Shown here: in pieces, positions 4,201 through 26,329 of the stretch
How the letters are laid out: each line of letters opens with the position of its first letter
Position numbering within the stretch: position 1 is the stretch's first letter
Virus record (IMG/VR): IMGVR_UViG_3300035145_002390
Coordinates: 1-26,467 of that record
Length of the DNA stretch: 26,467 nucleotides
Reading direction: 5' to 3' (one strand)
Source: a virus
Made by a program: the position numbers and the translations under genes
Notes under the pieces: generated by a model
The model's database searches: none
What the model was told of the DNA's origin: nothing
Seen by the model: only the letters and a program-made list of their open reading frames with translations

Positions 4201-7200
4201 ACTGCTGATACTACTGCAATTGGTGGTCTTACAAGTGGAAATGAGCATCACATTCTCAAACTTGATAACAATTCCTTCAGATTAAGTGATCCTGGTGTTG
4301 GTACAACTGCATTTACCAACAATTATAAGAGAAGAAAGTTTGTAGAACTCACTACACAAGGTGTTGGTAACCATAATTTTGCTTATAGAGACATTTCTCT
4401 TACAATTGATGCCGAATTTGACGGTGTGACAGGTGTAATTACTGCCACTCCACAGGTCAGAGGTGAAATTGTCGATCTTTACCTCTATGAAACAGGCACT
4501 GGGTATGGTTCAACCATCCTTAACTTCCACAAATTGCCTGATGTTACCTTTAAATCAGGTAAAGACGTTGAAATTAAACCAATTATTAGTGGTGGAAAAA
4601 TTGTAAGCGTTCAAATCACCAATCCTGGGTCAGAATACACTAGTGCACCAGACCTGACAGTCGATGGTGTGGGTATTGGAGCAAAATTAAGAGCGATTGT
4701 TGCAAATGAGAAGGTTACCTCTGTTGTAATCCTCAATGAGGGTGTTGGATATGATGTCAATACCTCAATTGCAGCAACATCTATAGGAAGTAAAGCATCT
4801 GCTAGAGCATCTGTCAGAGATTTGACAGTTGATCACAATGCAAGATTTGGTAATGAACTTGTTTCAGAGGACACAGCAGGTCTGAAATACAATTTAGTGG
4901 GATATAGCACCCAGATTGGTGGAGATGCCTTCCAGGACGCTGCAGGCACCCACTCACCAATCATTGGTTGGGCATATGATGGTAATCCAATCTATGGACC
5001 TTTCGGACATGCTAATCCATTAGATATTAACTCTGATATTGTTCAGTTGAGCACAGGATATACTAAATCTAGTGCTAACGTTGTTGATAGACCTTCTGGT
5101 TTTGCTGATGGATTCTTTGTCGAAGATTACAAATATGATAATTCTGGAAATCTAGATCAATATAATGGCAGATTTGCAAAAACACCAGAATTCCCTAATG
5201 GTGTCTATGCATATTTTGCTGGAATTTCCACTAATTTTGGAACTGGCACTACACAACCTGAATTTCCATATTTTATTGGACATTTCTACAGATCAGAACC
5301 TATAACACAGAATGTAGATCAAACATTCGACTTCAATTCTTCTAAACTAAGAAGAAATACACTCCCATATAGAGCAGATTCACTGTTTGCTTCAAATGAC
5401 TTTATTGTTGAACCAAATGAGTTCATTGCACAAAGAGCAATCGTTGATTCTATTTCAAGTGGTTCTGTAAATGACTTCAAAGTCATTGAACCTGGATCTG
5501 GATATGCCATAAACGATGTTGCAAGTTTTGCTGGTCAAGGTGGTCTTTCAGCATATGTTTCGGAGATTAAAGGGAAAAGTATTGTTGATGTCAATACGAC
5601 AACAGAAACTTTCACCGACTGTGTAGTTACCAGATCTAATGATTCTGAAGTAAAACTAACGTTTACATCAACACATAATATTAATGATGGAGATAGCATC
5701 GCTATTTCCGGTCTTTCAACTTACATTAAAGGTCTGACCAAGACACATAGCGTTGGTGTTACTACTGAAACACTGTTCTTAATTGCTGATGTTGCTTCAA
5801 ACGCAACTGTAGGATTTGTCACTGACATCTATGTTTCTAATGTCCCAGAAATTATCTCTGTAGGATCTACAATCGGTATTGGAACTGAAAGACTAGAAGT
5901 CCTTAACATTTTTAGTGGAAGTAAGGTTCTGAGAGTTGCTAGAGGTCTGTCTGGTGCTGGACATACGTCGTCTACAGCAGTTAAAGAAGTTAGCAACACA
6001 ATTACAGTTCCTCTGAATACTAAAGATTTCTCATCGAATGTAAATGAGGAATACTACTTCAATGCAGCATCTCAAATTGGTATTGGAGCTACTGCAGGAA
6101 TAGGAGTTTCGTTTGTTTATGCTGTTGGAGCAGATGCTAGATCCATCTCAATTCCAACTCAAAGCATTTACTTACCAGATCACCCATTTACGACAAATCA
6201 ACCTGTTGTTCTTGCTGCTCCAGTTGGTGCATCGAAGATCTCTGCATCTGATACCGCATCATCGACCCAATTTAATATTCCAGACTCCACAACACAAAAT
6301 CTCTTTGTAATTAACAAAGGAAGAGATTACATCGGTCTTGCAACTCAGGTAGGAGTTACCACAAACGGTCTCTTCTTTAGATCGTTTAGTCCAAATGGTG
6401 ATAGTGATGATTACAAGTATTCTATTGCACCTCGTTATGATCAAGTAACTGCAAAAGCACAAAAAATTACTGCAACGGTTGCTGTATCTACTGCTCACGG
6501 ACTTTCTGATGGAGACACAATCTCTCTCGATGTAAGACCAAACCTTTCAGTTGGTATCGGCGTATCTACAGGTATTCTTGTCAAGAGAAATGCTGATGAA
6601 GCAAAAATTCTTGTCAATCCTGTTGGATTTACTTCAGCAGTAGTTGGAACTGCCAAGAGTGAGTTATCAATCACATCACACGGATTTAAGACTGGTGAAA
6701 AAGTATTCTACAATTCTTCGGATTTGATTGTATCTGGTCTTGAAACAGGTTCTTACTATGTTTATAGGATTGATGATGATACCATTCAACTTTCCGAAAC
6801 ATATAACGATTCAATCTCAACTCCACCAACTATCGTAAGTTTTGGATCAACTGGTGGTGCAGGTCAAGAGTTGGCAAAAATCAATCCACAAATTCCTGTT
6901 ATTAAAAATAACAACCTTGTATTTGATCTGTCTGATGAATCTCTTGATGGATATAACTTCAAGATTTTCTATGATAATAAATTCCACAATGAACTGGTAT
7001 CGGTTGGTGGAACAGTAACAGACTTTAGTGTAACTGGTGTTGGAACGATTGGTATCGGAACCACAGGAACGGGCACACTAACTCTCAAGTATAGTTCACA
7101 ACTTCCATCAAAACTATATTATACTCTTGAAAAGTCTGGATATATCAGTAGTGCTGATACATTTGTATCAAACTATTCAGAAATTCTTTTCGTTGATAGT

Positions 7201-10200
7201 AAGTATAATGGCAACTATGCGATTGCTGGTGTTGGAACTACAACGTTCCAGGTTGCATTAGATCAAGTACCAGAAGATTCTGCTTATGTTGCATCTGATT
7301 TAGCGTTTGCAGAGTATACAACAAATTCACCAACTGCTAGAGGTGGTGTTCATCAGATGAGAATTACCTCTGGTGGAGAGGGATATAAAGATCTGCCAGA
7401 CTTTGTAAGTATTGCATCAACTGATGGTATCAATGCAACGATCCTCCCAGTCTCTGAAACGATTGGAAATATCAATGAAGTAACAATTAAAGATCAAGGA
7501 TTTGATTTCTCTGCAGATAAAACCTTAAGTCCAGAAGCATTTGTATCTTCCAACTATCGCTTAAGAAATAGAAATACCATTAGTGCAATCAATGTTATTG
7601 ATGGTGGTCAAAATTATATTTCTGCACCTGATTTAATCATCGTAAATCGTGATGGTGTAGAGGTAGATTCTGGTCTTCTGGAAGCAAATCTCCAAGGTTC
7701 ATCAATTACTTCTGTAACTATTGGTGATGCACCTAAAGGATTGAGTGAAGTTGTTAATACAGTTTTTGCTATTAATAACACTAACGGTGTTGGAATCGAT
7801 AGTTGTACGTCATCTCCTACAGGTATTGTTACCTGTAGATTACAAACACCTATCCTTGGATTCAATACAGCACCATTTGCTGTTGGAGACAAAATTTTTG
7901 TTGAGGGTATTACAAAAATTGGTACTGACGGTCAAGGATTTAACTCTGCAGATCATGGATTTAAGTTCTTCCCTGTAACCAAGTTTACTAATACAAATCC
8001 TGCTGAAGTTGAGTTTGATATGACAGGCATCGCCACTGGTGCTGGTATTGCTGTCACCACACAAAATTCTTATGCAACTCTGATCAGACAGTCCAACTAT
8101 CCAACGTTTGAAGTTGTTCAAACACCATTGGAACTTGTTGATGGCGAAAAGATTCTTACTTTAGATACGGCAACAAATCAGTTTGTTGAAAGAGATTTAG
8201 AAGTTGTTAGTAATGAAGGAGAACTTCTGAAGATCTATGGATCTTATGATCTATCTTTAAATGAAAAACTTCTTGGTAAGACTTCTGGAGCAGAGGTAAC
8301 AGTCGATTCTATTGAAGAAAATAGAGGTTTCTTCAATATTGACTATTCACTTGAAACTGATATTGGATGGCGTGAAGAAACTGGAAAACTCAATCTGGAT
8401 TCTCAAGTAACTGCAGATAATGATTATTATCAAAATCTTTCATACACAGTTAAGAGTTCCCAAACATTTGAGAAAATTATTGATCCTGTAAACAGATTGC
8501 TTCATACTTCAGGTATGAAGAACTTCTCTGATACTGGAATTACCAATAATATCAATGCAGGTATCGGAACCACCGTTTCTTCAACTAGTATCGCACTGCT
8601 TGACATTATTAGTGATAAGAGAGTAGATGTTGTTAAGTCGTTTGACTTTGGTCTTGATGTTGACGTATTAAACGGAAGATCTAAGTTTATCAAACTTGAA
8701 AATAAAAAACTTGCTGATTTTATTAAGTGTGATACAAACAGAGTATTGATCGTTGATGATGTTAAGAACCAGTTCTCTAACAATGATGACACTGAAGATT
8801 TGTTTGTGAATCTTGATGCTATCAACTTCACTGATGGATATGCAAGATACCTGCTTCAGGTAAGAAGTGTTGACAACAAAGAAATGCAGGCAACTGAAGT
8901 TGTAGTTGTTCCATCACAAGATAGGAAGTCTTTCTTGACAGTTGAAAAAGCAAACATCACTATCGGTCAGGCAAACAATAACAACACAAATACAACATTA
9001 AGTCTTGGCGAATTTATTGCAGATGCTAATAACTTGGCACTGCAATTTGTTCCAACTGAACCATATGAGACTGATTATGATATTAAAATTCTTAAGAATG
9101 AATTTAATACGACTCTGACTGGTATTAACACAAGAACAGTTGGTTTTGCAGATCTTGTTGGTGTTACAACTACGGTTGGCGTAGGAACAACAGTATCTCT
9201 GGTTGTCAGAGATGCTAATATCACAGAGGGAATTTACGCTAATGTTGAAGTTGTTAATACAGCAACTCAGTTAAGATCAGTTGTTGAACTGTATATGGAT
9301 CATGATGGAACTGATACTTCTGTTTCAGAGTTCTATTTTGATAATGACAATACAACAGAATTATCCGATAACTTTATTGGAACCTTCAAAGGAAATATTA
9401 GTTCTGGTGTTCTTTCATTAGACTTTACTAACAGCACTGGATCTGATTCAGTTCTTGTTAGAACCAGAGCAGTTGGATTTGGATCAACATCTGTTGGTGT
9501 TGGAACTTATAGATTCCTTACAGCATCACAACCAGCAGAAAGTGAAAAGTCTGGCAGACTTCAAACTAACTTTGCACAGACTGTTGGTATTTCTACTCCT
9601 ATCAGCGTTTCTAACTCTGATGTAACAACTCTCAAAACACTTGCGAGAGTTGGATATGGAAATACTTCTGCATTGCACCAATTACTGGTAACACACGATG
9701 GAACATCAGCTTATACCGTACAATATCCTTATCTTTCCATTGGAAGCACCAGCGGGATTGGAACATTTGGAGCCAATATTAGCAATAATGATCTGCTACT
9801 AAACTTCTTCCCAGATCCTACTATTTCTGGATCTCAAGAAATTGTAGTTCAAACTTACACTGAGGTTTTACAAACTACTAGAGATCTTGAAAATGTTGCA
9901 GATATTTTAACTTATGGTCCAGTAAATGAAAAACTGACTGTAAGTGGATATAACGCACTTAACGGTGAAAGAGGTAATGCTACAGCGTTTGATATGAAGT
10001 ACGAAGGTACTCCTATCTTTGCGAAGACTTTTAATCCCTCAGACACTACTATCCTTGATAAAGGAACTGGTATCTTTACAATTCAGGACCACTTCTTCCA
10101 GACTGGAGAACGCCTTATCTATGAACCAGGTTCAACATTTACTGGTGTTGCTGGAACTGCAATGAACCGTGCAGGAGTAAGTGTTGGACTGGCAACAGAA

Positions 10201-13204: not shown

Positions 13205-14752
13205 ATGGCGGCCATTGTAACCGATCAGTTTAGAATATTGAATGCGGAAAATTTCGTAAATTCCGTCACGAATACTTCTAATTCATATTATGTCTTTGTG
13301 GGATTAGCAAATCCTACAGAAAGTGGTTTTGGGAAGTCTTCTACTTGGGACACAAACACTCCAAGTCCTATTGATAACTTTGAGTATCAAGGATTTGTAA
13401 GTGATAATATGTCCTTTGGTAGGAAAGTTACTTCCTCAAATATTAGAAGAGTTGTTAGAAGAATAAACTGGACTCAAGGAACGCGATATGAAATGTATCG
13501 CCACGACTATAGTATTAATAGTTTGTCTCCTGTGTCTAAGTCTGCAAGACTATATGATGCAAACTACTATGTAATGAATAGTGAGTTTAAAGTTTATACT
13601 TGTATCGACAACGGTTCTTCTGGTATTTCCACAACAGGTAATGCATCATTAGATGAACCGACATTCACTGATCTTGAACCTTCAAAAGCAGGTGTTAGTG
13701 GTGATGGATATGTTTGGAAGTATCTGTTCTCAGTCTCTCCAAGTGATGTTATTAAGTTTGACTCTACAGAATATATCACATTGCCTAATGATTGGGAAAC
13801 AACAACCAATGCTCAGATTGCCGCAGTCAGAGACAATGGTGATTCTACGGTTAACGAGAATCAGTTAAAGAAAATCTATATTGATGAACGTGGTGCTGGA
13901 TATTCTCAAGGAACACACGAATTAGATATCTTGGGTGATGGCACTGGAGGAAAAGCGATCCTTGATGTTGATGCTCAAGGAAGAATCACTAGTGCTTCAG
14001 TTTCTTCTGGTGGTAAGAACTATTCTTTTGGAATGGTTGATCTTGGATCAATTAACTCCAACTCCACAACCAAAGCAAAACTGGTTCCAATCATCCCACC
14101 TTCAAAAGGTCACGGATATGACATTTATCAGGAACTGGGTGCAGAACGTGTTCTTCTTTATGCACGCTTTGATGATTCCACTAAAGATTTCCCAGTAGAC
14201 ACAACAATATCTCAAATTGGTGTTGTAAAGAATCCAACATCTGTTGGTTCTACTTCAGTATTTACTGACAATCAATATTCATCAATGGGTGCAATTAAGT
14301 TCTCAACAACTTCTGGCACTCTTGCAATCGGTGATGTTCTAAGTCAGAGCGTAACTGGTGGAACTGCTAAAGGTTATGTTTTCTCATATGATACTGAAAC
14401 TAAAGTTGTTAAGTATGTTCAGGACAGATCATTGTTCCTGAATCAAACAACATTTGATCAAACTGATTATGTTGGTGTGACAACTTCTGCTAATGTATAT
14501 TCATTTGCTTCAAGTGCAAATGCTGTAACCAGCGATGGTGGTTTCTCTGGAACGATTGATACTGGATTCACTGGAGTTTCTACAAATCCAACAGGATCAA
14601 AGGTTGTTTCTTTGGGTGTTAACTTCGCAAGTGGAGTTGCTACACCAGAGATAAATAAAGGATCAGGGGACATCATCTATATTGACAATAGACCTGCTAT
14701 CTCCAGAAACTCAAGACAAAAAGAAGACGTTAAAATCATCCTGGAATTCTAA
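13205..14752 (+). CDS. 8: Baseplate wedge subunit gp8 (T4-like)
   Basis: This 515-residue protein begins MAAIVTDQFRILNAENFVNS and continues with the SNSYYVFVGL, FGRKVTSSNIRRVVRRINW and YEMYRHDYS segments expected of T4-like gp8. In T4, gp8 is a dimeric wedge component bound to gp6, gp7 and gp10. It is longer than T4 gp8 (334 residues). Part of the extra length is an insertion of GSGY-type beta motifs: GAGY near 230 and GGKNY near 269, separated by a 'GDGTGGKAILDVDAQGRI' turn. The same module type fills the neighbouring giant protein. The start is the first ATG after the late promoter at 13179-13186; no Shine-Dalgarno is seen. The stop at 14750-14752 lies three bases before the next gene. Confidence 0.88.
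   Translation: MAAIVTDQFRILNAENFVNSVTNTSNSYYVFVGLANPTESGFGKSSTWDTNTPSPIDNFEYQGFVSDNMSFGRKVTSSNIRRVVRRINWTQGTRYEMYRHDYSINSLSPVSKSARLYDANYYVMNSEFKVYTCIDNGSSGISTTGNASLDEPTFTDLEPSKAGVSGDGYVWKYLFSVSPSDVIKFDSTEYITLPNDWETTTNAQIAAVRDNGDSTVNENQLKKIYIDERGAGYSQGTHELDILGDGTGGKAILDVDAQGRITSASVSSGGKNYSFGMVDLGSINSNSTTKAKLVPIIPPSKGHGYDIYQELGAERVLLYARFDDSTKDFPVDTTISQIGVVKNPTSVGSTSVFTDNQYSSMGAIKFSTTSGTLAIGDVLSQSVTGGTAKGYVFSYDTETKVVKYVQDRSLFLNQTTFDQTDYVGVTTSANVYSFASSANAVTSDGGFSGTIDTGFTGVSTNPTGSKVVSLGVNFASGVATPEINKGSGDIIYIDNRPAISRNSRQKEDVKIILEF
14650..14657 (+). promoter_or_regulatory. Candidate internal late promoter (GATAAATA)
   Basis: GATAAATA is one base from the T4 late consensus. It lies inside the 3' end of gene 8, about 100 bases before the ATG of the DUF4815-type gene. 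Its distance to the next start is almost the same as that of the candidate inside gene 6. A chance occurrence in AT-rich coding DNA cannot be excluded. Confidence 0.35.
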
Positions 14753-14755
14753 AAA

Positions 14756-17700
14756 ATGCCACAAAAAACGAATCTCAATATAAGCCCATATTTTGATGAT
14801 TTTGATAAGGACGATAATTTTTATCGTGTCTTATTCAAACCAGGATCGCCTGTTCAAGCGAGAGAACTGACAACTCTGCAGTCTATTCTGCAGAATCAGA
14901 TAGAAAATTTTGGTAGTCATATTTTCAAAGAAGGATCGATGGTGATCCCTGGAAATATCAACTATGATGGCGAATATACCTCAGTAAAAATCAACTCAGA
15001 TTATCTGGGAATTCCTGTAACAGCATATGCAGATAAACTAGTAGGGAAAAGATTAAAAGGACAAACTTCAGGTGTAACTGCGAGTATTGATAAATTCCTG
15101 GATGTTTCTCCTAGTGAAGGAATTACAGATCTGACACTATTTGTTAGATATCACGATTCTAGTGATGTTGGAGAGATTTCAACTTTCAGCGATGGAGAAG
15201 TTTTAATCGTTGAAGAAAGTTTTACTTATGGAAATACTGCTGTAAATGCAGGAGACACAGTTGCTACAGTTGTTGCTGAAGATGCTGCAGCGATCGGTAG
15301 TAATGTTTCGATCGGTCAAGGTGTTTATTTTATCAGAGGAACATTTGTTGATGTTGCCACAGATAAAATTGTTCTGGATGCATATAGTAACAATCCATCT
15401 TTCCGAGTTGGTCTAGAAATTACTGAAGAACTCATCACTGCAAAGGATGATAGTTCTCTCTATGATAATGCAAAGGGATTTTCTAACTTTGCTGCACCTG
15501 GTGCAGATAGACTGAAGATTTCTACAAAACTTTCGAAAAAACTTCTTACTGATTACGACGATAAGACATTTGTTGAATTAATTAGAATTGAAGATGGTGA
15601 AATTAAGAAGTTACAGAATACTTCTGTTTACAGCGTAATCAAAGATTATTTTGCAAAGAGAACCTTTGAAGAGTCTGGAGACTATTCTCTTGGAAACTTT
15701 GGTGTTAGCACATCAGAGATTTTGAATGATAGAATGTCTAATGAAGGTGTATATTTTGATGATCAAATAACTGATCAAGGTAATACTCCTTCTGAAGATC
15801 TGTATGCGGTAAAACTTTCTGCAGGCAAAGCATACGTCAAAGGATTTGATGTAGAGACTATTTCAACAACAGTTCTTGATGTAGAAAAACCAAGAGATAC
15901 AAGATCAGAAACAGATGTTTTAGTTCCATTTGAGTTTGGAACACTTTTGAGACTTAATAATGTCAATGGAACCCCTTTCATTGGTGTTGATAATAATGAT
16001 AATCTTGTCGGTTTACACAATCAAAGAAAAACAACAGCAAACGCAACTGGTGGTTCTGGAACTCAAATTGGTAGAGCAAGAATTTATTCTTTCGGATTAA
16101 GCGATGCTCCATATTCGGATGCATCATCACAGTTTGATCTTTACTTGTTCGATGTTCAAACTTTTACAGAATTAACTCTTAATTCTTCAGTATCAAATGC
16201 ACAACTTCCAGACTCTTCATTTGTTGAAGGTGTAAGCAGTGGTGCATCAGGTTTTGCAAATGCTCAGGGTGGTGGTAGTGATACCGTCAATCTTGTTCAA
16301 ACAACAGGAACATTTATTGCTGGTGAGCAATTAAGAATCAATGGTACTATTTTAGTTTCAAGATCTGTTAAAAGAGTTAGAACTTTTGGTATTGAAGATA
16401 TTAAGTCCGTATTCCAAGATTCTACCGCAGTTGATTCAGAACTGAAATCTGATTTCTCCGGTGATTTGATTCTTCAGAGAAAAACAGCACCAAACTTCAG
16501 TATCGCAGATCAAATTACTATTAGTTCTGCTGGTATTGCCACAGTTGCTGGTAAGAACTTTGTTGGCATCAAGAGTGATGCAATCATCAGATACCAAACT
16601 TCAAGTCTGTCGGTTCCAACATTTAACAGAGTTGAAAGTGTTGCTGCTGATGGATTGTCAATGACATTAGCAGTAACATCTGATGTTGCCAATGTATGTG
16701 ATGGTAACATCGTTGCAGGAACAGTCAATTTTACAATTGGTGCTCCTATTGTAAGAAATAAAGGTGGTATGTACGCACCTTTAGAACAAACTGATGTTTC
16801 TACAGTTGGTCTCTCTGGATCAAATCTTGTAGTATCCACTCAAATTAGAGAAAAGTCTACCAGTGCTGCTGGGGAACTGAGTTTGGTTCCTGGAGACACT
16901 GGTATTACCAGTTCTAGATACGAAACATTTGATGCTGAGCGTTACTCAATTCATTATTCTGATGGAAGCACTGAAGATTTAACTTCTGATCAATTTACCT
17001 TGGGTACTGATGGTAATGTTACCATTAAAGGTTTGACAGCATCACAGTCAAGTAATGTCACTGTCAATGCAACTGTTAAGAAAATTGGTATAACTGAAAA
17101 GAGAAAAGATTATGTTAGAAGTGAAAAAATTAACATCACTAGATGTCAAAGTGGAGTTACAACTTCTCTAACAGGATTGACGCAGAGTGATTTCTTTGGA
17201 ACAAGAATTGAAGACAAAGAAATTTCCCTCAACGTTGCTGATGTTGTAAAAGTTATTGCTGTCTATGAGTCGCTTGATACCAATGCTCCAGTTTTAGATA
17301 AACTGGCATTCCCAGCTGGTCTCGCTTTAAATACAAATTCTATCCTTGGTGAAAAAATTCTTGGTAAAGAAACTGGTGCTTTAGCGCAGATCGTCACAAG
17401 ATCTTCTGCAACAGAAGTTGAAATTGTATATTTGAATGATTCTAAGTTCTCAGTTGGAGAATTAGTAGAGTTTGAAGAATCAAATATTACTTCAATTATT
17501 TCTACCATCACTATTGGCAATTATCAGGATGTAACTAGACATTACACTCTTGATAAAGGACAAAGGGAAGAATTTTATGACTACGGACGTATTGTAAAAT
17601 CTAACGATGGATATACTCCAACACGCAGACTACTTGTTATTTTTGATTACTACCTTGTACCTAGTAACGATACTGGCGATATTTACACTGTAAACTCTTA

Positions 17701-20700
17701 TGATTCTGAGAGATATAAGTTTGATATCCCAACTCTTCCAAGTGGAGTAAGAGCGTCTGATATTCTCGATATGAGACCAAGAGTTACTGCTTTTGATCCT
17801 TCTACTAATAGATCTCCATTTGATTTTGATTCGAGAACTTTTGGAACAACAGGAAATAACCCAACTTTAGTTGTTTCACCTGAAGAGAGTTCAATTGTTG
17901 ATTTTTCATACTATCTGCCAAGGATTGATAGAATTTCTCTGGATAAAAACGGTGTATTTACCGTAACTAAAGGAACCTCTGCAGTAAATCCAAAGGCACC
18001 AACTTCGGTGGATGATGCAATGGAAATTGCAACTCTGAAGTTACCTGCTTATCTCTACAACACTGATGATGTTGAAATCACGGTTGTTGACAATAGAAGA
18101 TATACAATGCGTGACATTGGAAAACTTGAGGATAGAGTTGAAAACTTAGAAACTCTAACATCGTTGACATTACTTGAACTTGATACTAAGACCTTACAGG
18201 TCAGGGATGCTGATGGTCTTGATAGATTTAAATCAGGTTTCTTTGTTGATGACTTCAAAGATGTTGCTAGAACTAATATTGATGATTCAGATATTTCGGT
18301 TGATAGTGCGACAAACACTTTAATAACACCTAGGGACTTCTTCTCTCTGAAACCACAGATTGCTTTAGAACCATCTATTAACATTAGCACAGCAGATTTC
18401 GGTCAAGACTTACCTCTATTGGACTCTAATGTTCAAAAGACTGGTGAGTTAGTTACACTCAAGTATACTGAAAAAGAGTGGATTGAACAACCTCTTGCAT
18501 CCAGAGTTGAAAATGTCAATCCATTCAATATGATTGACTTTACTGGAAGAATTCAACTAACACCAGCATCTGATAATTGGGTAAGAAATGTTTTTGTTGA
18601 TGGTGGAACTAGAACCATCACTTCTGCCACTGGCGAAACTTACATTGAAACGGTCAAGATTTCTAGTGAACCAGACACTCACGTCAGATCAAGAAACGTA
18701 GCATTTGCTGCTGGTGGACTAAGACCTTTGGCAAGACACTATCCTTTCTTTGATAGTGCTAGTGGTATCGACGTTGCACCAAAACTTATTGAGATTACGA
18801 TGTCTTCTGGTGTATTCACTGTAGGTGAAGATGTTAGTGGATTTATTGGTGGAACAAGAGTCTTTAGCGCAAGAGTTATTCAACCAAACCACAAAACTGG
18901 TGCATATAATAATCCAACAACAACTATCAGTTTGAATCCATATGATAGATCTGTAAGTCTCCCAACAACATATTCTGCATCCTCAACTGTTCTTAACGTT
19001 GATATTGAGGCACTTTCAGATGAAGTTCAGGGTCGTTACTTTGGATTTGTTCAAAAAGGTGTTGTCCTTGTTGGCAATACAAGCGGTGCACAAGCGTCTG
19101 TAAGCGATGTTAGATTGTTTACTGATACCTTTGGTGATCTAGGTGGTTCAATCTTCTTCAGGGATCCTCTAGCGTCTCCTCCACCACCTTTGAGGTTTAA
19201 GACTGGAACTAATTCTTACAAGTTGACTTCGAGTTCAACAAATGCAACTCCTCTCAAGGGAAGTTTGTTGATTAGCTCTGCTGAAACTACTTATAGAGCG
19301 ACTGGTATTGTCGATACTTTCAGACAAACAAGAGTTATCGTAAGAAGACCACCTCCACCACCACCACCACGTCGTCGTCGTGGCGGAAAAGACCCACTGG
19401 CACAATCATTTACAGTGGATGAAACTGGTGCATTCCTTACTTCAGTTGACTTGTTCTTCTCAAACAAGGACGAAGCAGAAAAAGTTACTGTTGAAGTTAG
19501 AACAGTTGAGTTGGGTACACCAACAAATCAATTAGTTGATGACTTCTCTAGGGTTACTTTAGAACCTTCACAAGTTAATACTTCATCCGATGGAACAGTT
19601 GCAACGAATGTTAAGTTCCCATCGCCAATTTACTTGGAACCAAATACTGAATATGCAATTGTTATTCTGGCACCAACAACCAATCAATATGAGCATTGGA
19701 TTGCTAGAATGGGTGAAAGAACAATCAACACAACCACATTACCGAATGCTGAAAGTGTTCTTGTAACCAAGCAATATGTTGGAGGAAGTCTCTTCAAATC
19801 ACAAAACGGAACTATCTGGACCGCAAGTCAATTTGAAGATCTCAAGTTTAAACTTTACAAAGCGAACTTCTCAACTACACCAGGAACAGCATTCTTCTAC
19901 AACACACCATTAACAACAACAGATTCTAATCTGCCCAAATTGAATGCAGATTCTATCAAGACTCTGCCCAGAAGATTGAAGATTGGTATTACCACAACAA
20001 CCACAATGAATTCTGTGTTGCAGGTTGGTAGAAAGGTAAGTGATGGAACTGCAGGAAGACCATTTGGTTTTATTGATCAAGTTGGTGGAAGACTTGATAC
20101 ATTGAGTCCTTCTATCGTAGGTGCTGGATATAGTAATGGTACTTATAGTGATGTTCCACTCTACACTATTACAGGTAATGGTAGTGGCGGTAGAGCAACA
20201 GTTGTTGTTGCTTCTAATGTAATTTCTTCAGTTACTCCAACCACAGATGGAAATGGATATGTTGTTGGTGACGTTGTTGGTGTTACTACTTCCAATATGG
20301 AAAAGGGACGTGGTGCAAAAGTTACTGTCACACAATTGGATGGATTTGATACTCTGTATTTGACGGGTGTTCAAGGAGAAACTTTTGATACAGGAGACTT
20401 GGTTGTTTATGAAAGTGACACTGCTGTTTCTTATGCAAACACTGATATTTTGAGTTCTACTGTTCTCGATTCTCTGTCAGAGGGTAATATTATTGAAGTT
20501 ACTCATCATAGTCACGGTATGCACGCAAGTAACAACATTGTTACTTTGTCGGATATTGAACCAAATACAGTTCCAAGTACACTTACATCTGAACTAACAA
20601 ATAGTGCAGCATCAATCTCTGTTGCTAATACATCTATCTTTGGAACATTTGAAGGTATTACCACTTCAAGAGGATTTGTCAAAGTCAACAACGAAGTTAT

Positions 20701-21820
20701 CTTCTATGATTCAATCACCGCAGGTGGTGGTGGAGCGGGAACTCTTGGAATTGGAACAAGAGGTATTGATTCATCTTTGGTAAGATCTCATCCAAACAAT
20801 TCAGAAATCTTCCCATACGAACTAAATGGCGTATCTTTGACCAAGATCAATACGCAACATAATATGTCCAGTAATGCATTATTGAATTCGTCTCAAGATA
20901 TTGATAAGTATTATCTTGAAATTGATCGTCAAGATAGAGCAAGTGGCGACACAATTCTGAGCTTCACTAGTGACAATCAAGTTGGTGGTAGTGGTGCAGT
21001 TGGCACAAGAAACATTCAATACAATACGATTGAACCAAGAGTTAATGTAATTACTCCAGGTGAAGGAACATCTATATCTGCACAAATTAGAACAACTTCT
21101 GGTACAAGTGCAGGTGGTATTGAACCATCGTTTATTGATCAAGGATTTGAATCTGTCGAATTGAATGTAGACAATGCTCTGTCTACACCAAGAATTGTTG
21201 CTTCCGAAATCAACGAAACTACCAGATTGACAACTTTACCCAAAAACAGATCATTCACTCTGGGAATTACACTCAATTCTAATGATTCGAATCTTTCACC
21301 AGTCATTGATACCAATAATATGACAATGATCTATGGTAGAAATCGTCTGAATAATCCTATTAGCGATTATACAGTTGATGGTCGTGTCAATCTTAATAGA
21401 GAGGATCCACATAGTTCAGTCTACGTAACCAACAAAGTTGATTTGGCACAACCTGCTACATCACTCAAGGTTTTGGTTTCTTCTTACAGACACGCATCTG
21501 CAGATTTCAGAGTTCTCTATCAGTTGTTTAGAACAGACTCTGGTGGTATTGAAACAACCTATCAGTTGTTCCCTGGTTACAATAACCTTAAAGACACTGA
21601 CGGTGATGGTTTTGGTGATGAGGTGATTGATAACACTCAAAACAATGGCAGATCAGATGCATTTGTTCCTGCCAGCATTGATGGACAGTTTTCTGAATAT
21701 CAGTTTACTGCCGACAATTTAGAACAATTTGATGGATTTAGAATTAAAATTGTTATGAGTGGAACCAATGAAGCACGTTCTCCAGAGTTTAAGGACCTTA
21801 GAGTAATTGCTCTTGCTTGA
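14756..21820 (+). CDS. Large baseplate/tail structural protein, DUF4815-like N-terminus
   Basis: This 2354-residue protein lies in the position of T4 genes 9 to 11. The N-terminus (SPYFDDFDKDDNFYRVLFKPG, then PVQARELTTLQSILQNQIENF, residues about 11-52) matches the conserved opening of the DUF4815 type found in large marine phage structural proteins. A central region follows, then a Pro-7/Arg-4 hinge (1532-1542). This leads into a DPLAQSF module (from 1546) with the family's later 'GSLFKSQNGTIWTASQFEDLKF' block (about 1676-1697). GSGY-type motifs and an 'IGDE-x-I'-type block recur near 1780-2000, and a DTDGDGFGD loop lies at 2280-2288. The chain ends with a 'FDGFRIKIVMSGTNEARSPEFKDLRVIALA'-type block common to such proteins. 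It starts only three bases after gp8's stop (TAA AAA ATG) without a clear ribosome binding site, which suggests coupled translation. It is probably a peripheral baseplate component that anchors fibres. The exact function is unknown. Confidence 0.78.
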   Translation: MPQKTNLNISPYFDDFDKDDNFYRVLFKPGSPVQARELTTLQSILQNQIENFGSHIFKEGSMVIPGNINYDGEYTSVKINSDYLGIPVTAYADKLVGKRLKGQTSGVTASIDKFLDVSPSEGITDLTLFVRYHDSSDVGEISTFSDGEVLIVEESFTYGNTAVNAGDTVATVVAEDAAAIGSNVSIGQGVYFIRGTFVDVATDKIVLDAYSNNPSFRVGLEITEELITAKDDSSLYDNAKGFSNFAAPGADRLKISTKLSKKLLTDYDDKTFVELIRIEDGEIKKLQNTSVYSVIKDYFAKRTFEESGDYSLGNFGVSTSEILNDRMSNEGVYFDDQITDQGNTPSEDLYAVKLSAGKAYVKGFDVETISTTVLDVEKPRDTRSETDVLVPFEFGTLLRLNNVNGTPFIGVDNNDNLVGLHNQRKTTANATGGSGTQIGRARIYSFGLSDAPYSDASSQFDLYLFDVQTFTELTLNSSVSNAQLPDSSFVEGVSSGASGFANAQGGGSDTVNLVQTTGTFIAGEQLRINGTILVSRSVKRVRTFGIEDIKSVFQDSTAVDSELKSDFSGDLILQRKTAPNFSIADQITISSAGIATVAGKNFVGIKSDAIIRYQTSSLSVPTFNRVESVAADGLSMTLAVTSDVANVCDGNIVAGTVNFTIGAPIVRNKGGMYAPLEQTDVSTVGLSGSNLVVSTQIREKSTSAAGELSLVPGDTGITSSRYETFDAERYSIHYSDGSTEDLTSDQFTLGTDGNVTIKGLTASQSSNVTVNATVKKIGITEKRKDYVRSEKINITRCQSGVTTSLTGLTQSDFFGTRIEDKEISLNVADVVKVIAVYESLDTNAPVLDKLAFPAGLALNTNSILGEKILGKETGALAQIVTRSSATEVEIVYLNDSKFSVGELVEFEESNITSIISTITIGNYQDVTRHYTLDKGQREEFYDYGRIVKSNDGYTPTRRLLVIFDYYLVPSNDTGDIYTVNSYDSERYKFDIPTLPSGVRASDILDMRPRVTAFDPSTNRSPFDFDSRTFGTTGNNPTLVVSPEESSIVDFSYYLPRIDRISLDKNGVFTVTKGTSAVNPKAPTSVDDAMEIATLKLPAYLYNTDDVEITVVDNRRYTMRDIGKLEDRVENLETLTSLTLLELDTKTLQVRDADGLDRFKSGFFVDDFKDVARTNIDDSDISVDSATNTLITPRDFFSLKPQIALEPSINISTADFGQDLPLLDSNVQKTGELVTLKYTEKEWIEQPLASRVENVNPFNMIDFTGRIQLTPASDNWVRNVFVDGGTRTITSATGETYIETVKISSEPDTHVRSRNVAFAAGGLRPLARHYPFFDSASGIDVAPKLIEITMSSGVFTVGEDVSGFIGGTRVFSARVIQPNHKTGAYNNPTTTISLNPYDRSVSLPTTYSASSTVLNVDIEALSDEVQGRYFGFVQKGVVLVGNTSGAQASVSDVRLFTDTFGDLGGSIFFRDPLASPPPPLRFKTGTNSYKLTSSSTNATPLKGSLLISSAETTYRATGIVDTFRQTRVIVRRPPPPPPPRRRRGGKDPLAQSFTVDETGAFLTSVDLFFSNKDEAEKVTVEVRTVELGTPTNQLVDDFSRVTLEPSQVNTSSDGTVATNVKFPSPIYLEPNTEYAIVILAPTTNQYEHWIARMGERTINTTTLPNAESVLVTKQYVGGSLFKSQNGTIWTASQFEDLKFKLYKANFSTTPGTAFFYNTPLTTTDSNLPKLNADSIKTLPRRLKIGITTTTTMNSVLQVGRKVSDGTAGRPFGFIDQVGGRLDTLSPSIVGAGYSNGTYSDVPLYTITGNGSGGRATVVVASNVISSVTPTTDGNGYVVGDVVGVTTSNMEKGRGAKVTVTQLDGFDTLYLTGVQGETFDTGDLVVYESDTAVSYANTDILSSTVLDSLSEGNIIEVTHHSHGMHASNNIVTLSDIEPNTVPSTLTSELTNSAASISVANTSIFGTFEGITTSRGFVKVNNEVIFYDSITAGGGGAGTLGIGTRGIDSSLVRSHPNNSEIFPYELNGVSLTKINTQHNMSSNALLNSSQDIDKYYLEIDRQDRASGDTILSFTSDNQVGGSGAVGTRNIQYNTIEPRVNVITPGEGTSISAQIRTTSGTSAGGIEPSFIDQGFESVELNVDNALSTPRIVASEINETTRLTTLPKNRSFTLGITLNSNDSNLSPVIDTNNMTMIYGRNRLNNPISDYTVDGRVNLNREDPHSSVYVTNKVDLAQPATSLKVLVSSYRHASADFRVLYQLFRTDSGGIETTYQLFPGYNNLKDTDGDGFGDEVIDNTQNNGRSDAFVPASIDGQFSEYQFTADNLEQFDGFRIKIVMSGTNEARSPEFKDLRVIALA
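19343..19387 (+). repeat. CCA/CGT trinucleotide tract encoding a Pro-7/Arg-4 hinge
   Basis: Seven proline codons (six CCA and one CCT) are followed by four CGT arginine codons and two glycines, preceded by two AGA arginines. This encodes residues 1530-1544 of the DUF4815-type protein. The tract separates the N-terminal half from the DPLAQSF module, which suggests a rigid, positively charged linker. Trinucleotide tracts of this kind can change length by replication slippage. Confidence 0.85.
21593..21619 (+). other. Asp-rich calcium-type loop (D-T-D-G-D-G-x-x-D)
   Basis: Residues 2280-2288 of the DUF4815-type protein read DTDGDGFGD, with aspartates at positions 1, 3, 5 and 9 and glycine at 6. 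This spacing matches the calcium-binding loops of dockerin, thrombospondin type 3 and EF-hand families. The loop lies about 70 residues from the C-terminus, just after a YQLFPGYNNL segment. Metal binding is inference. Confidence 0.6.
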
Positions 21821-22201: not shown

Positions 22202-22540
22202 ATGGCAGTCTACACTTCTAATATTATAGTAAATACTGGAACAGACTTTAGTCAAATTTTTACTCTAGAGGATGGGCAGACTAACGCTGCTCTTAATTTG
22301 ACTAGTTATGATGTAAAAGCACAAATGAGAAAGCATCCTACTTCTAGTGGGGTGACAACTTTTACTGCATCAATTTATAGTGCTTCTAATGGTCAAATTC
22401 AGTTGGGTTTATCAACAACCACAACTGCCAGTTTGAAAGAAGGTAGATATATGTATGATGTTGTCTTAACAGACACATCAAATGTTATGAGTAGAGTTCT
22501 AGAAGGATCTGTAATGGTCACCAAAGGAGTTACTCAGTAA
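22202..22540 (+). CDS. Small virion structural protein, possibly BppU-N-like
   Basis: This 112-residue protein begins MAVYTSNIIVNTGTDFSQIF and is rich in Thr, Ser and beta-strand pattern. The order is an N-terminal 'T-G-T-D-F-S-x-x-F-T-L', a 'N-L-T-S-Y-D-V-K-A-Q-M-R' strand, a 'G-Q-I-Q-L-G-L' strand and a final 'Y-M-Y-D-V-V-L-T-D' strand. This order resembles the beta-sandwich N-terminal domain of phage baseplate upper proteins (BppU type), which attach receptor-binding proteins to baseplates. The resemblance is by eye and uncertain. Its stop shares a base with the next start (TAATG), so the two are probably translated as a pair. No ribosome binding site is visible before its own ATG. Confidence 0.72.
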   Translation: MAVYTSNIIVNTGTDFSQIFTLEDGQTNAALNLTSYDVKAQMRKHPTSSGVTTFTASIYSASNGQIQLGLSTTTTASLKEGRYMYDVVLTDTSNVMSRVLEGSVMVTKGVTQ

Positions 22541-22806
22541 TGGCAAACATCAAAGTTAGATCAAGCAATAACTCTATTGTTGTTAGAGTTGGTCAGACTA
22601 ATGCAACTAAAGTTGTAGCATCAAACGTTGCTGCATCAGCAGCAGGAACATTGGAAGCAATTGCAAGCGATGTTTCTTCTTCAGGCAGAGCTACAAATAC
22701 ATTCTTAATGTATGACGGTAGCGATTATATACACGTAGATGCTTCTCAGATTATGGATCTGGCAGATACAGTTGATGACGATACAATTGATTATGGTTCT
22801 TTCTAA
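22540..22806 (+). CDS. Small structural-type hypothetical protein (88 residues)
   Basis: ATG 22540 overlaps the preceding stop as TAATG, with AAAGGAG at 22523-22529 ten bases upstream. The product begins MANIKVRSSNNSIVVRVGQT, has an Ala/Ser-rich middle, and ends in an acidic tail (IMDLADTVDDDTIDYGSF). It has no cysteine, signal peptide or membrane segment. The strand-like N-terminus and the position between a BppU-like small protein and the fibre gene suggest a connector or an adaptor for the fibre. This is inference and I do not recognise a named family. Confidence 0.7.
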   Translation: MANIKVRSSNNSIVVRVGQTNATKVVASNVAASAAGTLEAIASDVSSSGRATNTFLMYDGSDYIHVDASQIMDLADTVDDDTIDYGSF

Positions 22807-22875: not shown

Positions 22876-25236
22876 ATGGCTGCTCCAGTATTAAAGTTTA
22901 AAAGAGGTAAGCTAGTAGAGCTTCCCTCATTGGCTGTAGGAGAACCAGGTTTTACTACTGATAAATACGATCTATATCTTGGAAGCAGTGACGGCAATAA
23001 ATTCGTAGGCAGTGGAAGATTCTGGAGTACTGAAACTGCTACCACAGGTAGTGGAGTATATTTCTTTGAAGCTACCGATAACGGAACTAACAAAACCCTT
23101 ATTCAAGCACCTGCTTCTTTAGCAGCAGACCTAACTTACACTCTACCAAGTGCTCAGGGTAACGCAAATTCTGTTTTAACAAATAACGGATCTGGCGTCT
23201 TGACGTGGGGTGCTGGTTCTGCAAACTCTGTTCTCACTGGTGTTACGACAATTCAAGGTTCGCTTGATGTTGAAGCGGATGCTGAATTTTCTGGTCTGAC
23301 TACAGTTACCAATACCACAGACAACACTATTGGTAATGTAAATACCGGTGCTTTACAGATTGATGGTGGTGTAGGTATCGCCAAGAATCTGACAGTTGGT
23401 GCTGCAGCATCTGTCACCAGTGACTTCTTTGTTTCGGGCATTTCGACTTTCGTAGGTACAGTAACGTTCCAAAGTGGAACAATCAACCTTGGTGATGCTG
23501 ATACTGACGACATTAACGTAGCTGGTGAGTTCATCTCAAGTCTTGTTCCTAACGCAACCAAGACTTATGATCTTGGCGAATTTGCTAAGCAATGGAGAGA
23601 TCTCTTTGTTGGTGGTCAAATCAATGGATATGAGGGTCTTGTAGGTACTGCAAGTTCAACAAGAGTTGACTATGCAGTTACTGTTGCATCCAAGACAGAC
23701 GCTCACAGATATAAAGGTTCAGGATCTAGTAGTGCATACTTCATTGATGGATCCGAATCTCCATTCCTGACTCTGTTACCTGGTCTATCTTATAGATTTG
23801 ACCAGTCTGCAGCATCGAACAGTGGTCACCCACTGAGATTCTATCTTGAGTCTGATAAGACTACTGAATGGACTACTAGTGTCACAACAAACGGAACTCC
23901 TGGTAATGCTGGTGCATATACAGAGATTGAAGTTCTTGATACTACACCTGTAGTTCTTCATTATCAATGTAGTTCCCATGGATTTATGGGTAACTCGTTG
24001 GCAACAAACTCCAACGTAGTAAACAGCAACCACGCAGCAATTCTCCGTGGAGGATTGGATGTTAGTGGTGGAGAGTCAACATTATCTTCTGCAACTGTCG
24101 AAGACTTGACTGCTGGAAGAGTTGTTCTTGCTGGTACAAGTGGTGCTCTTGAGGATAGTGGAAACCTGACATTCAACGGAACTAAGTTGACTGTCACAGG
24201 AAACGCTCAAATCACATCAGACCTGGATGTTGATGGTGGCGCTAACATTTCTGGTGGAGAATCAGTTTTATCTTCTGCAACTGTTAGTGATCTGACTGCT
24301 GGAAGAGTTGTTCTTGCTGGCACAAGCGGTGCTCTTGAGGATAGTGCACTTCTGACCCACACTGGTGGAACTGGTCTTGTTGTAACTGGCAATGCATCAG
24401 TAAGTGGCATTGCTACAATCAAGCAACTTGAAGTTGGTCTTCCTGGACAAACTTTGGTTGGTATCACTACCATTCTTGATGAAGATACCCTGGCATCAGA
24501 TAGTGCAACTGCACTGGCAACTCAACAGTCTATCAAGGCATATGTTGACTCTCAAGTAACTGCACAAGATCTTGACTTCGCTGGTGATTCTGGAACTGGT
24601 GCTGTTGATCTCGATTCTCAGTCACTGACTATCTCTGGTACTTCTAACGAGATTGAAACTTCAGCATCAAACCAGACCATTACAATTGGACTTCCAAATA
24701 CAGTCAACATCACGACTGAACTGGATGTTCCAACCATTGAAGTAACCACCATTGAATCAAGAAATGGTGCTACTGCAATGACCATTTCCGATACTACGGG
24801 AAATGTTGCAGTTGCGTCTACTTTGACAGTTCAAGGTGATCTGGTTGTAACTGGTGCACAAACAATTGTCAATACAGAGACCCTGAAAGTTGAAGACTCT
24901 CTGATTGAAGTTGGTCTTGTTAACAGTGGTGGTGATCTGGTTGCACCTACTACTGATGCAAACATTGACGTTGGTATTCTCTTCCACTATCACACTGGAT
25001 CTGCCGCCAAGAAAGCAGCAGTATTCTGGGATGATTCGGTATCAAGAATTGTATTTGGATCTGATGTATCAGAAACCAACAGTGTATTGAGTGCAACTGC
25101 CAACACAGGTTACTCTGGAATCGAAATTAAAGAACTTTACGTCAACGACTGTGCAGGTGCTTCCCAGGTTATTTCTTGTACTGGTAGCACAAGAAATCTT
25201 GAGAATATCACGATTGACGGCGGAACATTCACCTGA
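22876..25236 (+). CDS. Tail-fibre-like protein with cupredoxin-like domain
   Basis: This 786-residue protein sits where T4 has gene 12/wac. Residues 1-50 (KFKRGKLVELPSLAVGEPGF, then TDKYDLYLGSSDGNKF) resemble the Mtd-type N-terminal domain that begins many phage receptor-binding fibres. Repetitive strand-rich shaft sequence follows. Residues about 259-385 form a cupredoxin-like domain with H318, C365, H368 and M371 in the type-1 copper pattern. A duplicated 32-residue block (GGES-x-LSSATV ... GALEDS) lies at 397-428 and 459-490. ALATQQSIKAYVDSQV (about 545-560) is a trimeric-fibre motif recurrent in such proteins. The C-terminal part contains FHYHTGSAAKKAAVFWDD, an often-seen tip block of marine phage fibres. 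No peptidase-type chaperone tail is evident. It is inferred to be a host-contact or baseplate-attached fibre. The start at ATG 22876 follows a late promoter. Confidence 0.8.
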   Translation: MAAPVLKFKRGKLVELPSLAVGEPGFTTDKYDLYLGSSDGNKFVGSGRFWSTETATTGSGVYFFEATDNGTNKTLIQAPASLAADLTYTLPSAQGNANSVLTNNGSGVLTWGAGSANSVLTGVTTIQGSLDVEADAEFSGLTTVTNTTDNTIGNVNTGALQIDGGVGIAKNLTVGAAASVTSDFFVSGISTFVGTVTFQSGTINLGDADTDDINVAGEFISSLVPNATKTYDLGEFAKQWRDLFVGGQINGYEGLVGTASSTRVDYAVTVASKTDAHRYKGSGSSSAYFIDGSESPFLTLLPGLSYRFDQSAASNSGHPLRFYLESDKTTEWTTSVTTNGTPGNAGAYTEIEVLDTTPVVLHYQCSSHGFMGNSLATNSNVVNSNHAAILRGGLDVSGGESTLSSATVEDLTAGRVVLAGTSGALEDSGNLTFNGTKLTVTGNAQITSDLDVDGGANISGGESVLSSATVSDLTAGRVVLAGTSGALEDSALLTHTGGTGLVVTGNASVSGIATIKQLEVGLPGQTLVGITTILDEDTLASDSATALATQQSIKAYVDSQVTAQDLDFAGDSGTGAVDLDSQSLTISGTSNEIETSASNQTITIGLPNTVNITTELDVPTIEVTTIESRNGATAMTISDTTGNVAVASTLTVQGDLVVTGAQTIVNTETLKVEDSLIEVGLVNSGGDLVAPTTDANIDVGILFHYHTGSAAKKAAVFWDDSVSRIVFGSDVSETNSVLSATANTGYSGIEIKELYVNDCAGASQVISCTGSTRNLENITIDGGTFT
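23650..24030 (+). other. Cupredoxin-like domain in the fibre protein
   Basis: Residues about 259-385 show the cupredoxin layout. A 'L-P-G-x-x-Y-R-F-D' strand (like G-D-x-V-x-F) leads to SNSGHPLRFY with the first histidine (H318). Forty-seven residues later comes YQCSSHGFMGN with C365, H368 and M371. The C-x2-H-x2-M spacing matches amicyanin (C-T-P-H-P-F-M). The H-to-C distance of 47 equals that of plastocyanin (H37 to C84). All four type-1 copper ligands are therefore present. Confidence 0.72.
24064..24345 (+). repeat. Pair of 96-base direct repeats in the fibre gene
   Basis: Bases 24064-24159 and 24250-24345 (starts 186 bases apart) encode nearly identical 32-residue blocks. Their shared part reads SATV-x-DLTAGRVVLAGTSG, followed by GALEDS. 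The DNA copies differ mostly at synonymous sites, so the protein sequence seems to have been kept while codons drifted. The copies are in phase and probably arose by duplication of a fibre shaft unit. Confidence 0.85.
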
Positions 25237-25483: not shown

Positions 25484-26329
25484 ATGGCAAAACCATCAAC
25501 ACGCCAAGGACTGATTGATTATTGTTTCAGACGTTTGGGTGCTCCAGTACTTGAAATAAACGTAGATGATGACCAAGTTGATGATTTGGTTGATGATGCT
25601 TTGCAATTTTATCAGGAAAGACACTATGATGGTGTCGAAAGAATGTACCTGAAGTACAAAATTACTCAAGAAGATAAAAATAGAGGAGAAGCAAAGGGAA
25701 CCACAGGAGTTGGAATTGTAACTACAAGTGCCACATCTACATCAATTAGTGGATATGGAACTACAACATCAAATTTCTATGAAACCTCAAATTTTATTCA
25801 AGTTCCAGACTCTGTAGTTGGAATTGAAAAAATATTTAAGTTTGATACTAGCAGCATTTCAGGAGGAATGTTTAGTATTAAATATCAACTGTTTTTGAAT
25901 GATTTGTATTACTTCAATTCAGTTGAACTTTTGCAATATGCAATGACAAAGACATATCTTGAAGATATTGATCGTTTGTTGACAACGGATAAGCAGATAA
26001 GATTCAACAAAAGATCGGATAGATTATATTTGGACATTGACTGGGGAGCACAAACAGTAGGTGATTTTATTATCATTGAATGTTATCGTGCTTTAGATCC
26101 AGAATCATTCAGTCAAGTTTATAATGATAGTTTCATCAAGAAATATCTTACTGCTCTGATTAAGAGACAGTGGGGAGCAAACCTCATCAAATTTGGTGGA
26201 GTCAAACTTCCTGGTGGAATTGAACTAAACGGAAGACAAATATATGATGATGGCGAGAGAGAAATCGAAGCGTTGATGTCCAGAATGTCTATGGACTTTG
26301 AATTACCACCCCTCGACTTTATTGGATAA
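25484..26329 (+). CDS. 13: Neck protein gp13 (T4-like)
   Basis: This 281-residue protein is close in length to T4 gp13 (309). In T4 it forms part of the neck that joins the finished head to the tail, together with gp14. The start is ATG 25484, directly after the previous stop, with GAGGA (25472-25476) seven bases upstream. The N-terminus (TRQGLIDYCFRRLGAPVLEI, then an acidic DDDQVDDLVDDALQFYQERHYDG helix) is the recognisable gp13 signature. The later KYLTALIKRQWGANLIKF and LPGGIELNGRQIYDDGEREI blocks also fit. A Ser/Thr/Gly-rich stretch at residues about 72-100 (from GTTGVGIVTTSATSTS) looks like a flexible loop. The stop overlaps the gp14 start by one base (TAATG). Confidence 0.9.
   Translation: MAKPSTRQGLIDYCFRRLGAPVLEINVDDDQVDDLVDDALQFYQERHYDGVERMYLKYKITQEDKNRGEAKGTTGVGIVTTSATSTSISGYGTTTSNFYETSNFIQVPDSVVGIEKIFKFDTSSISGGMFSIKYQLFLNDLYYFNSVELLQYAMTKTYLEDIDRLLTTDKQIRFNKRSDRLYLDIDWGAQTVGDFIIIECYRALDPESFSQVYNDSFIKKYLTALIKRQWGANLIKFGGVKLPGGIELNGRQIYDDGEREIEALMSRMSMDFELPPLDFIG

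Follow-up and report, generated by a model that had tools for sequence, protein, structure and literature searches.

The window, meaning the whole stretch of DNA that was analysed, is a virus record of 26,467 bases and covers part of the tail and baseplate region of a T4-like marine phage. It contains an ORF of 3963 aa (1285–13176), a gp8-like baseplate wedge protein (13205–14752; PHROG 438, E 5e-160) and a structural protein of 2354 aa (14756–21820). These are followed on the plus strand by a probable fibre-assembly protein (22202–22540), which is of the L-shaped tail fibre assembly or LtfC-like kind and matched PHROG 3304 (E 9e-33) and, below the cut-off, PF23926. It is the upstream partner of the fibre and, after a small gene (22540–22806), leads to the gene of a 786-aa tail-fibre protein (22876–25236, plus strand), matched by PHROG 30742 'tail fiber protein' at E 2.7e-51. 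The downstream border of this fibre island is the neck protein, a T4 gp13-like head-tail adaptor (25484–26329, plus strand; PHROG 211, E 1.1e-47), so that the fibre gene lies between the L-shaped-tail-fibre-assembly-like gene and the neck gene. A similar gene order from the fibre-assembly-like gene to the neck gene was seen in the OM43 phage Melnitz and the Synechococcus phage DSL-LC02, and the stretch from VrlC to the neck has been described as a variable 'host recognition cluster' in phages of this kind (PMC7029224). The closest relatives of the gp8 (61%) and neck (79%) proteins were from cyanomyoviruses, the neck protein being 77–79% identical to cyanophage gp13. Within the fibre, the sole region recognised by Pfam was an Mtd_N (major tropism determinant N-terminal) motif at aa 7–36 (22894–22983, plus strand; PF18454, 28 bits against a cut-off of 26.3), which probably marks the baseplate-proximal end.

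The preliminary description had placed the four ligands of a type-1 copper site in this fibre, and its residue numbers proved exact on translation of the ORF at 22876–25236. From the translation and from conservation in the family, the predicted copper ligands are H318 (23827–23829), C365 (23968–23970), H368 (23977–23979) and, in the axial position, M371 (23986–23988), all encoded on the plus strand. C365 and M371 are among just three Cys and three Met residues in the 786-aa protein. The amicyanin-type loop, C-x2-H-x2-M, was borne out as C365-SS-H368-GF-M371. The order His, Cys, His, Met is that of type-1 copper proteins, and the Cys/His/Met loop precedes the last strand, lying between strands E106–111 and E119–123 of the structure model. 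The modelled span of the domain, delimited by the AlphaFold model, structure matches and profile comparison, is aa 255–383 (23638–24024, plus strand), with an HMM core at aa 266–377 (23671–24006, plus strand).

The borders of the region were also visible in an orthologous fibre (L488). Its first 241 residues were 61% identical to aa 1–241 of the window fibre, and its sequence from aa 242 onward was 48% identical to the window fibre from aa 383 onward, with nothing in between. This pattern indicates that aa 242–382 (23599–24021, plus strand), the block absent from L488, is a clean insertion. The fibres of the Synechococcus phages DSL-LC02, from a lake, and S-B05 were likewise without the block. 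Judged by these alignments, the cupredoxin domain is an optional, movable module in fibres.

Seventy-six diverse relatives of the window domain were aligned, and this alignment served as input for both modelling and profile construction. The AlphaFold (AF2) model had a pLDDT of 92.9 and a pTM of 0.86. When compared with the PDB by Foldseek, its best match was rusticyanin (E 2.2e-4), and further top rows were Cu-nitrite reductases, bilirubin oxidase, CueO and small laccases. The PDB matches listed were all cupredoxins or multicopper-type proteins, the metal-free SufI (2uxt) included. Using VIA-align, 100 residues were superposed on the N-terminal cupredoxin of the Hyphomicrobium nitrite reductase with a Z of 9.2 and an rmsd of 2.7, and Z values near 8 were obtained against laccases and rusticyanin. 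Such Z values are middling taken alone, but the structure-match rows for the model all point to one superfamily. Whether the domain would model as a Greek-key cupredoxin sandwich had been named at the outset as a check, and it did so, with blue-copper or multicopper proteins as the top PDB matches. Among viral models in BFVD, the matches included giant-virus 'beta-sandwich proteins' of Pithovirus LCPAC302/304 and Marseillevirus LCMAC201/202 (E 2e-8 to 4e-7), a match of fold alone.

Descent and register were checked independently of the model by profile-profile comparison. The 76-member profile was aligned by hhalign with a profile of 56 PF00127-family proteins drawn from the genomes of cyanobacteria and other bacteria, giving a score of 48.8, a probability of 95.6 and an E of 1.1e-8 for this one comparison. 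The reversed profile scored 11 and 15 column shuffles scored at most 16. The alignment paired His with His, Cys with Cys, His with His and Met with Met, where H64, C111, H114 and M117 of the model correspond to H318, C365, H368 and M371. When gp9-type copies were combined with neighbouring ones in one profile, its score was 56.7 with the cupredoxins (shuffles ≤15.4) and 173 with the window family (shuffles ≤14.1). The predicted convergence of the four ligands in space rests on the fold match together with this pairing of profile columns.

Scans with the single sequence gave a different picture. The preliminary description had looked to the Pfam cupredoxin families, but neither PF00127 nor PF13473 matched the window domain above its cut-off, and no other Pfam or NCBIfam model did so in single-sequence scans. 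Over the 76 relatives, PF00127 matched four (best 0.0023), and PF25489, a plant At5g54830-like domain, gave weak sub-cut-off matches in 22. PF13473 reached 2.4e-4, below the cut-off, in copy 2 of the P-SSM2 spike. In the NCBIfam scan the domain was unmatched by the amicyanin equivalog TIGR02657 and by the plastocyanin model TIGR02656, the window loop being two residues shorter than C-x2-H-x4-M. Because their models were unmatched, the domain was not assigned to plastocyanin or amicyanin. A single-sequence search of the PDB and hmmsearch with the family alignments returned chance-level matches only; among them was pseudoazurin 3tu6 at E ~1, with its C-x2-H-x-G-M segment aligned. An alternative assignment to the carbohydrate-binding family CBM_4_9 came from sub-cut-off Pfam matches (best 7.7e-5; 8 of the 19 members of one alignment and 7 of the 76 of another), which, wherever coordinates were available, ended ahead of the Cys loop. 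This reading was dropped, since the fold and profile evidence favoured a cupredoxin. On the model and the profiles, the window domain is almost certainly a true cupredoxin domain.

With tblastn, the window domain found matches in 69 of 50,697 phage records. Where a host or source was named, these phages were marine and infected Synechococcus, Prochlorococcus, SAR11 (Mosig, Baldr) or OM43 (Melnitz). By PHROG, all 76 alignment members were tail fibre, baseplate wedge, fibre connector or virion structural proteins, or were unannotated. A related domain, here called 'HPFYI'-type, was present in 336 phage records and, among the matches listed, was mostly part of gp9. It occupies the C-terminus of cyanophage gp9, the baseplate wedge or long tail fibre connector, whose N-terminus matches T4 gp9 and gp10. 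The long tail fibre of T4 is held by gp9. The gp9 of S-SSM5 (L545:2001-2288) is an example that ends in such a domain with H-C-H-M. Where inspected, the records of HPFYI-type gp9 proteins were named gp9 or connector only. Two copies of the domain were present in the tail spike of P-SSM2. Separately, one intact-looking copy together with partial, degenerate copies was observed in cyanophage baseplate or structural proteins of very large size (L211, which is P-HM2 gp7, and L213, L215, L217 and L218).

It had also been suggested that the domain belongs with hosts that carry plastocyanin. The cyanophage affinity of the gp8 and neck proteins agrees with this in part, but phages of SAR11 and of the OM43 methylotrophs had the domain too, with identical ligands, so a plastocyanin-host link is not needed.

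Conservation of the ligands was determined from at least 144 distinct copies collected with search seeds that were free of ligand residues. In these, H, C, H and M were conserved in 97, 96, 96 and 96%, respectively, placing the ligand columns among the most conserved of the family and level with the structural core. In an enlarged set, H-C-H-M was found in 297 of 338 distinct copies among the matches listed; some of its seeds contained ligand residues, a bias towards intact sites, and one query had been picked for lacking them. After reduction at 85% redundancy, again among the matches listed, 141 of 156 copies had the full set. Two further samples were selected without reference to the domain. 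For fibres selected by their first 254 residues alone, the domain was present in 27 of 81 that were not cut short, and all 27 had H-C-H-M. For gp9 selected by the first 300 residues alone, each of the 77 complete proteins among the matches listed had the C-terminal domain with H-C-H-M, at pairwise domain identities down to 61%. The four residues therefore did not vary freely among homologues, which had been raised as grounds for doubt, and were near-invariant (141/156 non-redundant copies, 27/27 fibres and 77/77 gp9). Conserved with ligand-free seeds and invariant in the N-terminus-selected samples, the ligand set is not a product of chance.

The site was partly or wholly lost in about one in ten of the non-redundant copies, with the fold signature kept. 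Each of the ten non-redundant copies that lacked the Cys lacked the second His as well. The Met was replaced by Gln in two copies (L135 and one L141 copy), a swap that resembles the stellacyanins, in which Gln is the axial ligand. With the ligand columns left out of the tree, the label of full or not-full site requires seven changes, four of them forced by strongly supported branches. The Cys and the second His changed jointly in four of five supported independent pairs and never in opposite directions, for which a sign test gave a p of 0.125, not significant by itself. Fisher tests on the raw loss table gave far smaller p values, with relatedness ignored.

A clade of ~370-aa phage proteins (L104:2752-3105, L087 and L383-L449) has an N-terminal cupredoxin-fold domain from which the ligands have been lost. 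The corresponding positions read N/F-S/A-L/T-M, and the clade provides a natural metal-free control. Phage 023Pt_psg01 encodes a protein that is similar in sequence to this clade and keeps all four ligands. The ligand-less L104 copy was predicted to have the same kind of fold with a pLDDT of 92.4, from an alignment in which relatives with ligands were also present and may have aided the prediction. Cupredoxins were still the first match of its model, with a best E of 1.1e-3. The ligands are therefore seemingly not needed to make the fold.

The existence of the ligand-less clade leaves a metal-free decoration or adhesion domain as the main rival explanation. Like the Ig-like and FN3 domains of virions, such a domain would serve without metal, and its ligands would persist by ancestry and local packing. 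That relatives without ligands keep the fold agrees with this, as do other metal-free cupredoxin folds, namely the ephrins and E. coli SufI, the latter already met among the structure matches. Against it, the ligands are conserved like the structural core across divergent relatives, and the Cys and second His are lost jointly rather than singly. Packing alone would also not predict Met-to-Gln as a tolerated axial change. Taking both sides together, we regard the metal-free explanation as unlikely, and selection for metal binding as the probable reason why the site has been kept.

Metal binding, the identity of the metal, rigidification and a role in docking are what we infer beyond this point. 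Copper or another soft metal would be taken up by the site, either during assembly or after release into seawater, and would tie the His loop to the C-x2-H-x2-M loop. Tied in this way, the loops could rigidify the exposed end of the sandwich, and the ordered end may then offer a surface for docking, either to the envelope of the host or to an adjacent part of the fibre or baseplate. The contact could be made with protein or glycan, for fibre attachment or for adsorption. A docking role was favoured over electron transfer, for which no partner exists and a fibre has no obvious need, and over a redox switch, as type-1 copper sites show very little geometry change on redox. The explanation as a whole, an intact type-1 copper ligand set in an optional fibre module that forms a metal-ordered docking surface, is the one we lean towards; for its last part, a metal-ordered docking or stability role rather than any other, the chances appear about even.

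Little free copper is available in the cytosol, in which the fibres of T4-like phages are produced, and the site is therefore perhaps empty or filled with zinc or Cu(I). The retention of the fold signature in the one-tenth of copies that are without a full site further implies that metal is dispensable in some settings. The strongest form of the idea, that occupied type-1 copper sites occur group-wide on marine T4-like phage fibres and at the gp9 joint and are needed for attachment or contact, is held tentatively and is doubtful at this stage. If true, it would mean that infection includes a copper-dependent step throughout the group, in phages of cyanobacteria as well as those of SAR11 and OM43.

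Two other functions for a metal-bearing domain were considered. By the first, the site would be metal cargo, with copper-bearing fibres drawn as a Trojan horse to host metal-uptake receptors or serving in seawater as ligands for copper, an idea put forward for iron in fibres with HxH sites. The named phages found with the domain are marine only, and both the HxH iron of T4 gp37 and the Trojan-horse idea have been discussed for marine phages (PMC11705849). This function is improbable given that no link to copper-uptake receptors was seen, that the gp9 position is at the baseplate end and does not face the receptor at first contact, and that the host range is broad. Slightly less probable again is a redox or copper sensor, in which the Cu(I)/Cu(II) state or the copper level near the cell would switch fibre deployment or adsorption. 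Type-1 sites are built for one-electron switching, and gp9, which in T4 forms the joint for the long tail fibres, contains a related domain. The nearly fixed geometry of these sites is, however, poor for a switch, and no partner reductase or oxidase was identified. A chance pattern in an unrelated beta-sandwich, for which only the failure of single-sequence Pfam cupredoxin matches to exceed the cut-off would speak, is very improbable, being contradicted by the conservation, the fold matches, the profile pairing and the N-terminus-selected samples.

Known cupredoxins are either free electron carriers or domains of enzymes. No report of a virion cupredoxin was found in the literature searched, which comprised openly accessible journal papers. 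The fold and the site were already known, and the location in virion tail and fibre proteins is new as far as that literature shows. Virion cupredoxins with near-invariant ligands, borne by ocean phages of great abundance, would put the fold in a new setting, and the results suggest that host-contacting parts may carry metal sites in many ocean viruses. Such a family would also give copper a possible part in the adsorption of phages, and it makes the attachment of phages of marine cyanobacteria, SAR11 and OM43 a directly testable question. In addition, an annotation is gained for several hundred hypothetical or structural proteins, as the C-terminal cupredoxin of gp9 or as cupredoxin modules of fibres and spikes.

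Metal sites have been proposed before on tail fibres of marine phages, namely those of the HxH iron kind, of which T4 gp37 and the alterophage R22Y are examples (PMC11705849). In this the window domain is similar; the HxH sites, however, lie between the chains of a triple-stranded fibre and hold iron, whereas the window site lies within one domain and has copper-type ligands. An HYH in the window fibre (aa 704-706; 24985–24993) was considered as such an iron site and rejected, the relatives having HYY, HYF or NYF. It varies freely, in contrast to the H-C-H-M set.

Also close to the window domain are the domains of cyanomyovirus gp9, the P-SSM2 tail spike and proteins of P-SCSP2 and P-GSP1, which belong to the same family with H-C-H-M. 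The gp9-group domains differ in being HPFYI-type and shorter, and in gp9 they are C-terminal. The gp9-group annotations inspected read gp9, connector, spike or hypothetical, and cupredoxin was never named.

Cellular relatives of the domain included a Prochlorococcus protein (L142) and flavobacterial proteins. The former (L142:1351-1755) is a secreted-looking HPFYI-type cupredoxin of 134 aa, unlike plastocyanin, and may be a cellular cousin of the domain in phages. The HPFYI cupredoxins, comprising L142, the flavobacterial L143 and PF25489 proteins, share H-P-F/L after the first strands and Y-Y-x-C-x2-H near the end. Unlike the window domain, they are stand-alone or eukaryotic, and L142 and L143 pass the PF00127 cut-off, which the window domain does not. 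Giant flavobacterial ORFs (L117, L118, L120, L126 and L130; the longest at least 5441 aa) were also observed to have one H-C-H-M copy at aa ~2675-2778, near locus base 8000. One of these ORFs is on a 2.0-Mb chromosome (Candidatus Arcticimaribacter).

Among the well-known type-1 cupredoxins, the proteins of PF00127 and PF13473 (plastocyanin, amicyanin, pseudoazurin and rusticyanin) have the same predicted fold and the same order and place of the ligands, and the ligand loop of amicyanin equals that of the window domain in length. The window domain differs from them in its own signatures, 'YRFDQS..SN.GHPLRF' and 'GTPG..GAYT', and in its setting: type-1 cupredoxins are free secreted electron carriers, whereas the window domain is embedded in a long virion protein.
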